A stretch of DNA of 64,000 nucleotides, from positions 1 through 64,000 of the forward strand of contig LNET01000098.1 in NCBI GenBank assembly GCA_001464055.1, read 5' to 3'. The position numbers were made by a program, and so were the translations under genes. The notes beneath the pieces were generated by a model. That model searched no databases, had not been told where the DNA came from, and was given only the letters and a program-made list of their open reading frames with translations. This DNA comes from Burkholderiales bacterium Ga0077543. GTDB taxonomy: Bacteria > Pseudomonadota > Gammaproteobacteria > Burkholderiales > Burkholderiaceae_C. Shown piece by piece: positions 168 to 4,038 of this stretch; the first letter of the stretch is position 1; every line of letters starts with the position of its first letter.

Positions 168-716
168 TTACTTTCGCTTGGGCGCCAGCACCATGATCAT
201 CTGACGGCCTTCCAGCTTGGGCATGTGCTCGACCACCGCCACGTCGGACAGTTCGTCGCGGATGCGTTCGAGCATGCGCATGCCGATGTCCTGGTGGGTG
301 ATCTCGCGGCCGCGATAGCGCAGCGTGACCTTGCCCTTGTCGCCGTCTTCGGCAATGAAGCGCCGCAGGTTGCGCATCTTGATCGCGTAGTCGCCGTCGT
401 CGGTGCCCGGACGGAACTTGACTTCCTTGATCTCGATGACCTTCTGCTTGCTCTTCGCCTCGGCGGCCTTCTTCTGTTCCTGGTATTTGAACTTGCCGTA
501 GTCCATCAACCTGCACACCGGGGGGTCTGCGGTGGCGGCGATCTCGACGAGATCGACATCCAGTTCCCCCGCCATGCGCAACGCTTCCATCGTGCTGACG
601 ATGCCCAGCGGCTCGTTTTCGATCCCGTTCAGGCGCACCTGCAGCGCCATGATTTCCCGGTTCAGCCGGTGCTTGCGTTCCGCATTCGGTACGCGGCGGT
701 CCATGAAAGTAGCGAT
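168..716 (-). CDS. infC: Translation initiation factor IF-3
   Basis: IF-3 binds the 30S subunit, prevents subunit joining and checks start-codon and initiator-tRNA fidelity. The N-terminal domain carries the HRLNREI motif and the C-terminal domain carries KEVKFRP and KLEGRQM signatures. I place the start at an ATC codon (716-714) rather than the in-frame ATG at 704. A GGAG sequence lies 8 nt before the ATC but 20 nt before the ATG, and the resulting N-terminus (M)ATFMDRR resembles homologues. A rare start codon is the known basis of infC autoregulation, because IF-3 discriminates against non-AUG starts. Length is then 182 aa, normal for the family. It lies 82 nt after thrS and is probably in the same transcript. 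Confidence 0.93.
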
Positions 717-798: not shown

Positions 799-2691
799 TC
801 AAATCTTCGAGGCGATGTCACTGCCGATCTTCGATTGGAAGTCTGCCAGCGGCATCGCACCGAGATCCTGGTTGCCCCGGGCGCGCACGGCGACGGTCCC
901 ATTGGCCTTCTCCGTGTCGCCAGCGACCAGGATGAACGGGACCTTCTGCATTGAATGCCCGCGGATTTTACGGTTGATTTTCTCGTTGCGCAAATCAAGG
1001 GACACCCTAACTCCTTGTTTCTGCAACGATTTCGCCACCATTTCTGCGTATTCGGCCTGCGCGTCGGTGATCGAGGCCACCACCACCTGCACCGGGGCCA
1101 GCCAGGCAGGCAGCGCGCCGGCGTGCTGCTCGACCAAGATCCCGATGAAGCGCTCCAGGCTGCCGACGATGGCCCGGTGCAGCATCACGGGGTGGCGACG
1201 GCTCGAATCCTCGGCCACGTAGACCGCGTCCAGGCGCTCAGCCATGGAGAAGTCGACCTGCATCGTGCCGCACTGCCACTGCCGGCCGATCGCATCCTTC
1301 AGCGTGTACTCGATCTTCGGGCCGTAGAAGGCGCCGTCGCCGGGGGCGATCTCGTAGTCGCAGCCGCTCTGCTTCAGGCTTTCGATCAGCGCGTTTTCGG
1401 CCTTGTCCCAGATCTCGTCGCTGCCGATGCGGGCTGCCGGGCGCGTCGCCACCTTGTAGATGATCTCGCTGAAGCCGAAGTCCTTGTAGACCCGCTGCAG
1501 CAGCGCCGTGTAGGCCAGGCATTCCGGCAGGATGTGGTCTTCGGTGCAGAAGATGTGGCCGTCGTCCTGCGTGAAGCCGCGCACGCGCATGATGCCGTGC
1601 AGCCCGCCCGTGGGTTCGTTGCGGTGGCAGTTGCCGAACTCGCCGTAGCGCAGCGGCAGGTCGCGGTAGCTCTTGATGCCCTGCTTGAAGATGCAGTTCA
1701 TCGGCTTGATGGCGTAGTCGCGCTTTTCCGATTCCGTCACGAACATCGCGTCGCGGTACTTGTCCCAGTGCCCCGTCTTTTCCCAGAGCGCCTTGTCCAG
1801 CACCTGCGGGCCTTTCACCTCCTGGTAACCGTTGTCGCGGTAGACATGGCGCATGTACTGCTCCACTTCCTGCCACACCGTCCAGCCCTTGGGATGCCAG
1901 AACACCATGCCGGGGCTGTGTTCGTCGATGTGGAACAGGTCGAGTTCGCGGCCCAGGCGGCGGTGGTCGCGCTTTTCGGCTTCTTCCAGCATCAGAAGGT
2001 ACTGCGCCAATGCTTCCTTGCTGGCCCAGGCCGTGCCGTAGATGCGCTGCAGCTGTTCGTTGGCCTGGTCGCCGCGCCAGTAGGCACCGGCCACCTTCAT
2101 CAGCTTGAAGTGCTTCAGCCGGCCCGTGCTGGGCACGTGAGGGCCGCGGCACAGGTCCTCGAAGTTGCCTTCGCGGTACAGGCTGACGTCCTGGCCTTCG
2201 GGAATGCTGCCGATGATCTCGGCCTTGTAGGCCTCGCCCATGGCCTTGAAGTGCGCCACGGCTTCGTCACGGGGCAGAACACGGCGAACCACGGGTTCGT
2301 TCCTGGCAGCCAGTTCACCCATGCGCTTTTCGATCGCCACCAGGTCTTCGGGCGTGAACGGACGCTTGTAGGCGAAGTCGTAATAGAACCCGTTCTCGAT
2401 GACCGGGCCGATCGTCACCTGGGCTTCCGGGAAAAGCTCTTTCACCGCGTAGGCCAGAAGGTGGGCCGTGCTGTGGCGGATGAGCTCCAGGGCCTCGGCG
2501 TCCTTGTCGGTGACGATCGCCAGATGCGCGTCGCTCTCGATGCGGTGGCTGGTGTCGACCAGCTGGCCATCGACCTTGCCGGCCAAGGCCGCCTTGGCCA
2601 GCCCGGCGCCGATGGAAGCCGCGACTTCGGCCACCGTGACGGGGCCTTCGAACTCTCGCCGGGAACCGTCCGGCAGCGTGATCTGGAGCAT
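799..2691 (-). CDS. thrS: Threonyl-tRNA synthetase
   Basis: This class II synthetase charges tRNA-Thr. The 630-aa product has an N-terminal TGS domain (about residues 1-62), an editing domain with the [10 protein letters not shown] motif that hydrolyses Ser-tRNA-Thr, the catalytic core ([14 protein letters not shown]-like [12 protein letters not shown], and a class II motif 3 near the end of the core), and a C-terminal anticodon-binding domain. I start at ATG 2691 (MLQITLPDG). A TTG farther upstream (2727) would begin inside the T-run of the attenuator, so I reject it. It heads the translation operon and is preceded by a leader ORF and terminator-like hairpin. Confidence 0.97.
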
Positions 2692-2725
2692 GGGAAACCT
2701 TTGCGTTGGAACCTGGGCAGACAAC

Positions 2726-2752
2726 AAAAAAGCGCGGGGGTCAGCCGCGCTT
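2726..2752 (-). terminator. Attenuator-like intrinsic terminator before thrS
   Basis: On the minus strand an 8-bp perfect stem AAGCGCGG/CCGCGCTT with a 7-nt loop ends in a run of six Ts, the form of a factor-independent terminator. It sits between a short leader ORF and the thrS start. Its 5' arm (GCGCGGCT, plus 2743-2750) can instead pair perfectly over 8 bp with AGCCGCGC located just after the leader ORF stop (plus 2782-2789). That would make an antiterminator that destroys the terminator. Confidence 0.75.
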
Positions 2753-2791
2753 GTGTTCAGGGAGACAGGGAACTGTCGAACGCGCGGCTGC

Positions 2792-2854
2792 TCAGGCCGA
2801 GATGAACGCCACGATGGGCGCCTCGGCGAAGAAGGTGGTAGTCCGCGGTGTCAT
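2792..2854 (-). CDS. Putative thrS operon leader peptide (Thr/Phe-rich)
   Basis: This 20-codon ORF begins MTPRTTTFF and ends in TGA. It has four Thr codons (positions 2, 5, 6, 7) and three Phe codons (8, 9, 17). A GAAAGG sequence lies 10 nt upstream of the ATG. The ORF is followed by mutually exclusive antiterminator and terminator helices before thrS. Codons 3-4 (CCG CGG) could also pair with the antiterminator arm. This is the architecture of ribosome-mediated attenuation: stalling at Thr or Phe codons would favour the antiterminator. I infer function from layout; no homologue was searched. Confidence 0.65.
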
Positions 2855-2897
2855 AACCGTGCTGCCTTTCTTGCCCTTGTTCGTTGCTGGAATGCGG

Positions 2898-2925
2898 AGT
2901 TTAGCCGCTGTCAGGGCAGCGGCAA
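2898..2925 (-). promoter_or_regulatory. Putative sigma70 promoter of the thrS operon
   Basis: On the minus strand a TTGCCG -35-like box (plus 2920-2925) and TAAACT -10-like box (plus 2898-2903) are 16 bp apart, about 45 nt upstream of the leader ORF. The -35 box overlaps the 3' end of the patatin gene. Each box matches the consensus at four positions. Confidence 0.45.
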
Positions 2926-4038
2926 GGCGAGCACAGGCTGGCCACCCGTGACGATCTCGGCGAACTCGTCGGCCAGCCGCTGACTTTCGGCCACGGCGAC
3001 GCGCCAGTCGCGCACGCGGCGGGCGTCGTCGTGACGGTAGGCCTTGAAGTCGTTGCGGTCGGGCAGCTTGGCGTTCGGCAGCCGGGCCACCCATTCTGGC
3101 GCGGGCGACAGCACGACCAGGTTGTCCAGCATCGGACTGGCACGGTGGCGGCGCTTGAAGCCCTTGTCCAGCCATCCGGGCACGATGTGGGGCTGGAAAT
3201 GCGGGTAGAGCACGAGGCCGGGCCCTCCGCCCCAGCCGGGCACCGGCAGATCGGCCATCTGCGCGTAGTTCAGATGAAGGTGGTAGTCGGTGATGCCGCC
3301 GTCCCAATAGGCACCACGTGGTCCGCCGGGGATGTCGTGCACGGCGTCCAGCCAGAACGGGATGGAACAGCTGGCCAGGATGGCTGGCGCCAGGTTGCCG
3401 GCCGTCAGTGTGGCGTGGTGGGTGCGGAAGTCGGACAAGGCAAAAGGCAGGGCCTCGCGGGGGTCGGCAAAGACGACGCGGTCGATGAAAGTGGCCAGGG
3501 CCCGGCGGTGGGCGGCGTTGGCCAGGTAGGCGCCCAGGTAACCCGCCGGCGTCCGCACCCTGCCCTGGCGCGCCAGCACGTGGCGGCCGCGGCTGGTGAA
3601 CACGTGCAAGCGGAAACGCGGATGCGACAGCACCTCGGCCGCGCGCCGGCCCAGGCGTTCCTCGATCTTCTGGCCGAAGGCGCGGCTGACGGTGCTGGCC
3701 GTGGGCATCTTGCCCGGCGCGTGTTCGTAGCGCTGGGTGATGTAGTCCTCGGCCAGCTGGGCCAGCGCGGCGTCGGGGTCGGCCAGGCAGGCCGCGGCCA
3801 TGCGCCAGGCGCCGATGGACGCCCCCAACAGGTGCACATGCTGCTGCGCCGTGCTGCCCGGGCCCTGCAGCCAGTGGCCGAAGATGAAGCGGTCCAGCGG
3901 GTTCAGCGTGATGCCCTTGGCACCGCCGGCCGCCGCAGGGATGGCGCGCACATCGCCTGCGCGCAGACCGTGGTCCTTCAACCAGGCCGCTGCGCGCGGC
4001 CCGGCGTGGATACGCAGCGTGGGCGCGGCCGGCCGCAT
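2911..4038 (-). CDS. Patatin-like phospholipase
   Basis: This is a predicted Ser-Asp dyad lipid acyl hydrolase of 375 aa. The nucleophile elbow GASIG places Ser74, the oxyanion-type glycine motif GGAKG lies near residues 38-42, and the DGG motif places Asp246. There is no signal peptide, so it probably acts in the cytoplasm or at the inner membrane. It starts 5 nt after the tex stop codon and is likely co-transcribed with it. Substrate unknown. Confidence 0.85.
   Translation of the reverse strand: MRPAAPTLRIHAGPRAAAWLKDHGLRAGDVRAIPAAAGGAKGITLNPLDRFIFGHWLQGPGSTAQQHVHLLGASIGAWRMAAACLADPDAALAQLAEDYITQRYEHAPGKMPTASTVSRAFGQKIEERLGRRAAEVLSHPRFRLHVFTSRGRHVLARQGRVRTPAGYLGAYLANAAHRRALATFIDRVVFADPREALPFALSDFRTHHATLTAGNLAPAILASCSIPFWLDAVHDIPGGPRGAYWDGGITDYHLHLNYAQMADLPVPGWGGGPGLVLYPHFQPHIVPGWLDKGFKRRHRASPMLDNLVVLSPAPEWVARLPNAKLPDRNDFKAYRHDDARRVRDWRVAVAESQRLADEFAEIVTGGQPVLALPLP

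Follow-up and report, generated by a model that had tools for sequence, protein, structure and literature searches.

Does the short open reading frame (ORF) ahead of thrS in this Burkholderiales genome sense amino acid supply, and does it answer to one amino acid or to two? For the stretch of DNA analysed here (the window, 64 kb from Burkholderiales bacterium Ga0077543), a preliminary description had proposed a combined Thr-Phe leader peptide with an attenuator ahead of thrS. From the analysis of the locus and its relatives we consider a classical leader-peptide transcription attenuator of the thrS operon, governed by the supply of Thr-tRNA, to be the probable arrangement, with a probability of roughly 0.85. 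The Thr leader with its mutually exclusive helices is retained from the earlier proposal, the sensing of Phe is not; we read the leader as a sensor of Thr and not of two amino acids.

Parts of the leader region and the genes behind it

The features of the locus are collected in Table 1. The leader ORF starts 163 nt ahead of thrS on the minus strand. The antiterminator arm AGCCGCGC and the segment GCGCGGCT (2750-2743) are exact reverse complements over 8 bp, with a computed core duplex energy of -15.8 kcal/mol. GCGCGGCT also forms the 5' side of the terminator hairpin, which is composed of AAGCGCGG-CTGACCC-CCGCGCTT and was also picked up by a consensus terminator scan. Within the window, pairing between leader codons 2-6 and the antiterminator arm is possible with a computed energy of -11.2 kcal/mol. 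The structural claims of the preliminary description, namely a 20-codon ORF beginning MTPRTTTFF, a terminator ending in a T-run, an antiterminator arm competing over 8 bp for the 5' arm of that terminator and early leader codons able to pair with the antiterminator arm, are all confirmed by these readings.

Table 1. Features of the thrS leader region and adjoining genes in the window.
Feature	Position	Strand	Remarks
Probable sigma-70-like promoter, TTGCCG - 16 nt - TAAACT	2898..2925	minus	read in the sequence
Shine-Dalgarno-like AAAGG	2865..2869	minus	10 nt ahead of leader ATG
Conserved block GGTTATGACACCGCG(A/G)AC followed by T (T only 83% conserved)	2840..2858	minus	surrounds the start codon; contains helix arm 1
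Leader peptide ORF, stop codon included	2792..2854	minus	ATG 2854 to TGA 2792, 20 codons, read from the sequence
Antiterminator arm (element 2), AGCCGCGC	2789-2782	minus	2 nt past leader stop codon; exact complement of 2743-2750
Intrinsic terminator hairpin (elements 3 and 4)	2752-2730	minus	T-run 2731-2726; consensus scan and folding
thrS, threonine--tRNA ligase (regulated gene)	799..2691	minus	ATG 2691; TIGR00418 equivalog, E 3e-207, above cut-off
infC	168..716	minus	downstream of thrS, same direction; TIGR00168, E 1e-71 for the ORF from 704

The promoter-like pair of hexamers sits at the end of an upstream ORF of the same direction, and a stricter consensus scan picked up no promoter at 2898-2925. 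Among 48 genomes of the family sample described below, 22 have their best -10-like hexamer beginning 45-54 nt ahead of the leader ATG; the mean score is 11.2 compared to 10.4 in shuffles (sd 1.28). Support for a sigma-70-like promoter in front of the leader, as judged from these hexamers, is modest. The Shine-Dalgarno columns -15, -14 and -12 are 92-96% conserved in the same sample, columns -13 and -11 75-77%.

The start of infC is probably a rare ATC (716-714) behind GGAG, four codons before the alternative ATG 704 (minus strand, 702-727). An identical ATC start is present in a sister contig (locus L211). The E. coli infC start codon is AUU.

Window base 1 is also the first base of its contig; this edge lies past infC and, by the gene order of the sister contig, would fall in rpmI. 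The sister contig, L211 (G000:C78, 1-6996), belongs to the same assembly and carries a partial thrS, 86% identical to that of the window, followed by infC, rpmI, rplT, pheS, pheT and ihfA; each gene from infC to ihfA scores above the cut-off of its NCBIfam model. The suggestion that pheST lies farther downstream is thus right for this contig. Since it holds the only pheS found in the assembly, the sister contig may come from a related strain, and the bin would then perhaps contain two strains. A terminator-like hairpin lies between rplT and pheS (L211, about 3020-3049) without a Phe leader peptide, and hairpins of this type recur among the printed pheS upstream regions. Separate control of pheST by another signal is possible.

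Conservation of the leader and its Thr codons

The preliminary description had suggested looking for the leader ORF in relatives. In the window's own family, 60 genomes were searched, 59 matched and 58 gave sequence upstream of thrS. An MTPRT-type leader was found in 49 of these 58 regions, a sample drawn by thrS and not by the leader, and nine regions carry none. The family leaders lie 119-191 nt before thrS, and one of them reads MAPRT. Leaders were called by the rule M-(T/R/A)-P-(R/L/P)-T, and conservation of residues 2-5 among the 49 therefore arises partly by construction. Two further regions, G438 and G445, were removed from 51 flagged ones because their flagged ORFs lie more than 500 nt away and look unrelated. 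By eye, G445 seems to carry a diverged leader of another type.

An exact-motif scan, and hence a sample chosen by motif, gave at least 119 contig stretches. Among the stretches listed, 115 of 119 have thrS 60-400 nt behind the motif and in the same orientation; the remaining four have no detectable thrS, and these stretches end 43-347 nt past the motif. The proteins behind four of the retained MTPRT leaders are a side observation: the ThrRS of L044, L064, L075 and L111 are mutually alike (83-96%), those of L075 and L111 (about 220 residues) reach only 57-62% against most of the family's other members, and that of L064 is 65-71% like most of them over its length. From these comparisons, the four look like enzymes with a diverged N-terminal part.

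Across the order, a DNA search with 361 bases around the leader matched in 38 of 150 genomes. Most of these matches are to the start of thrS, whereas six genomes (G133, G007, G093, G058, G141 and G056) have a match that covers the leader start. A pattern scan with at most one mismatch found 43 of 399 genomes; L061 and L062 lack a nearby thrS, so that not every hit is a leader. By thrS, 98 of 100 order genomes matched, and 96 upstream regions from 95 genomes (one gave two) were compared. Leaders of the MTP(R/L)T or MRPPT type occur in 14 of the 96, the window counted in. A looser rule adds 19 regions, some of them clearly by chance, and 13 of the 19 hold an in-frame CGA-ACN (Arg-Thr). Diverged leaders with such an Arg-Thr core are found in some other families, for example MFKRTTTTRISR, MSFRTTTTGTLNQG and MAVRTTTTHP. 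Outside the order, a Thr-rich leader was not found at 29 thrS loci, the best 29 of 52 other genomes with a match (56 genomes of the class were searched), save for one reading of a tRNA-Val gene. A tRNA gene stands upstream of thrS in 68 of the 96 order regions (tRNA-Val(GAC) in those listed) compared to one of the 58 family regions.

The Thr codons had been proposed to suit thrS, and this is supported by their retention. Codons 6 and 7 of the 49 family leaders are mostly Thr with synonymous codons mixed; codon 6, which lies outside the part fixed by the rule, reads ACG in 15, ACC in 10, ACA in 8 and ACT in 2 of them, while Thr at codon 5 belongs to the search rule. Residues 2-10 include two to six Thr codons per leader, and a single one in one leader. 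Thr triplets are also the commonest run in short ORFs before thrS, both in the family (23 of 58, followed by Ala with 5) and in the order (14 of 96, followed by Arg with 7). When three in five were counted instead, Val led in the order (43), followed by Arg (26) and Thr (25); in our reading the leading Val count stems from tRNA-Val genes read as ORFs.

Co-variation of the helices and folding models

For the helices, motif-based and thrS-based loci were pooled to 211 distinct leader-thrS regions. A terminator hairpin lies downstream of the leader in 209 of these (200 of the MTPRT class, nine of another class). The best duplex of the spacer with the terminator 5' arm and loop (2:3) has its median start at +2 and its median end at +18 with respect to the stop codon; in 186 of the 209 regions it overlaps the zone between that codon and +12. 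Because some best duplex can always be found, two null tests were run. Compared to shuffled spacers the duplex is stronger in the 200 MTPRT-class leaders (mean z -1.53). In a swap test on 121 thinned sequences, element 2 pairs with its own terminator arm at a mean of -14.5 kcal/mol and with swapped arms at -13.4 kcal/mol; own partners are better by about 1.2 kcal/mol, and none of 10,000 permutations was as good. A control region, the 60 nt upstream of the leader, had no partner effect (9,620 of 10,000 as good). By this comparison, the antiterminator arm and the terminator of the same genome co-vary. For the pairing of leader codons with the antiterminator arm the signal is weak, both in the swap test (codons 2-7, 219 of 10,000) and against shuffled sequences (1:2 helix, mean z -0.69).

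The folding models gave a less uniform picture. To represent a ribosome we assumed a mask of 12 nt, counted from the first A-site base. In the window, the predicted probability of the terminator (P_term) is 0.001-0.009 with Thr5, Thr6 or Thr7 in the A site, 0.034 with Phe8 and 0.938 with Phe9. It amounts to 0.884-0.940 at codons 10-11, stays under 0.01 at codons 12-18, and reaches 0.206 at codon 19 and 0.995 at codon 20 and the stop codon. The modelled switch of the window would thus be strong but not simple: unlike in the textbook case, termination is predicted at codons 9-11 and none at codons 12-18. For the ribosome-free RNA of the window P_term is 0.0 and readthrough is predicted, the class mean being 0.93.

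At equilibrium with a ribosome stalled on Thr, the mean probability of the terminator is 0.86-0.88 among 200 relatives, and it falls under 0.5 in 10-14% of them. The corresponding means are 0.94 with shuffled spacers, 0.93 with no ribosome and 0.97 with a ribosome at the stop codon. With the terminator persisting in most stalled relatives, antitermination would have to be kinetic, and since equilibrium folding gave no antitermination in most relatives, folding before completion of the terminator and the swapping of partners were used. Sequestration of the terminator 5' arm before its 3' arm is made was 0.87 for stalled ribosomes, 0.72 at the stop codon, 0.83 with no ribosome and 0.75 for the shuffled null; the modelled contrast is modest. 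These folding results speak against antitermination, and it is co-variation, position and co-transcriptional timing, not equilibrium, that carry the case for it.

The sequence of events that we propose, with its timing, ribosome positions and response to threonine, is our reading of these parts. RNA polymerase would transcribe the leader with a ribosome following behind. When charged Thr-tRNA is ample, the ribosome would pass the Thr codons, reach the stop codon and cover element 2; the terminator (3:4) could then form, and transcription would stop before thrS. When Thr-tRNA is scarce, the ribosome would stall at Thr codons 5-7 and cover arm 1, leaving element 2 free to pair with the terminator 5' arm (2:3), and the polymerase would continue into thrS, infC and beyond. 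Most likely, the switch raises ThrRS when threonine is short.

The start-codon block, competing explanations and known systems

One feature is not predicted by pairing. The 18-mer GGTTATGACACCGCGAAC, counted with no peptide rule, is exact in 42 of the 58 family regions, carries one or two substitutions in seven and more than four in nine. In the family leaders, columns -4 to +13 are 92-100% conserved; this includes the third positions of codons as well as the four bases ahead of the ATG, whose conservation is imposed by no search rule. Element 2 and the terminator loop vary while this block stays near invariant, so that pairing with a changing partner does not account for it. A small hairpin around the start codon, GGT-TATGAC-ACC, was considered by eye as the reason for the block and dropped, as position -5 varies. 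It is conceivable, at a rather low probability, that the leader has two layers, in which attenuation by Thr codons is joined by GGTTATGACACCGCGAAC as a separate signal, either for a trans-acting partner, with ThrRS, a ribosomal protein or a small RNA as candidates, or as a special context for initiation or stalling. In such a context the block would tune the loading of ribosomes on the leader or their pausing in it.

The same conservation at the RNA level, synonymous sites included, would be expected of a protein binding site. The ORF might then merely keep ribosomes on the RNA, with thrS being controlled by ThrRS binding to its own leader in the manner of the E. coli operator. We consider this unlikely: the switch lies ahead of the thrS start and is built from a terminator and from an antiterminator overlapping the stop codon of the leader, and the identity of Thr is kept while the synonymous codons at position 6 change.

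Lower still stands the idea that one leader answers to either Thr or Phe on behalf of an operon that includes pheST. It draws on the TTC TTC directly after the Thr codons in the window leader, on pheST behind rplT in the sister contig and on the readthrough that persists in the model with Phe8 in the A site. However, Phe-Phe occurs among the first 12 residues in only ten of the 200 MTPRT-class leaders, and three of the 49 family leaders sampled by thrS have it at any position; in the model the terminator returns once Phe9 occupies the A site; and the window contig ends after infC, with the only pheS found lying on the other contig. A recurrent Phe leader at pheS was not found either: a Phe-rich short ORF occurs in one of 58 distinct pheS upstream regions, read from two in-frame starts, and is taken as chance. 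From the lack of Phe conservation and of a recurrent Phe leader at pheST, we reject dual sensing. In the TTTFF codons, for which a test of conservation had been proposed, the Thr part is kept and the Phe part is not, and the proposed role of the adjacent Phe codons is abandoned.

An equally small chance is given to a general sensor of slow translation, responding for example to ribosome-targeting antibiotics, with Thr as a stalling context rather than the signal. Any stall at codons 2 to 8 leads to readthrough in the window model, and a precedent is described for E. coli topAI, where a short upstream ORF senses several classes of antibiotics (PMC12121999). Against it, many genera from several families have Thr codons as the repeated ones and thrS as the gene behind them. 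A chance ORF between the upstream gene and a simple terminator, as terminator-like hairpins seen by eye before thrS in some leaderless genomes might suggest, is refuted by conservation (49 of 58 family regions) together with co-variation, and on these comparisons the leader-terminator arrangement is far beyond chance.

The proposed attenuation by Thr-tRNA through a leader peptide can be placed among known systems. Thr_leader and T-box are among the cis-regulatory families of Rfam. With Rfam release 15, no family matched at gathering score within the 64 kb window; the best match around the leader site was THF-II (E 0.52), far below the gathering score, and a T-box or known riboswitch was rejected on this result. 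Curated NCBIfam leader-peptide models gave no family at E up to 1 for the 20-residue peptide, a weak test at this length. Attenuation of amino acid and aminoacyl-tRNA operons was reportedly the subject of Lopatovskaya, Seliverstov and Lyubetsky in 2010, who may already list the leader; our literature search found no leader-peptide attenuator of thrS in Burkholderiales.

In the main text of a survey of premature terminators, E. coli is the only organism for which ThrRS is mentioned (PMC2965389). For C. metallidurans, an RpoD promoter is given for the thrS-labelled locus Rmet_R0015 (PMC9045368), which we read as probably being a tRNA gene ahead of thrS. A thrL-thrS attenuator has been proposed in Streptomyces lividans. 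As described there, a Thr-containing leader peptide, MKRVRPFLETTPGFVPAR, likewise precedes thrS, but the organism is an actinobacterium, and the transcript is leaderless, with two Thr and no clear terminator (PMC8079986). By eye, that leader has no likeness to MTPRT beyond Thr.

The kind of mechanism is already known. Leader-peptide attenuation is old, and thrS in Burkholderiales would be an added, well-preserved case. The findings point to a widespread thrS switch in Burkholderiales that is recognisable by sequence and perhaps also governs IF3, L35, L20 and PheRS behind thrS. No family of Rfam release 15 picks up the window switch, and a simple motif now suffices to annotate the leader.

Classical amino-acid leader-peptide attenuators of Proteobacteria comprise the thrL, hisL, trpL, pheL and pheST types. 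The window leader is like them in its short ORF with cognate codons, its 2:3 antiterminator, its 3:4 terminator and the predicted masking of element 2 by a ribosome at the stop codon. In contrast, it serves an aminoacyl-tRNA synthetase operon instead of a biosynthetic one, and leaders of its type combine few Thr codons with an unusually invariant start-codon block. In E. coli, ThrRS represses translation of thrS at an operator. There the gene is the same and the downstream gene order is like that of the sister contig, but control is by translational repression, whereas the parts found here are those of transcription attenuation. The T-box of Firmicutes thrS leaders also controls thrS by tRNA charging via a terminator, but it binds uncharged tRNA directly, and the window has no such match at gathering score. 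The switch contrasts with the E. coli operator, which acts on translation, as well as with the Firmicutes T-box, and thrS is therefore well suited for asking how one gene gains different sensors of tRNA charge.
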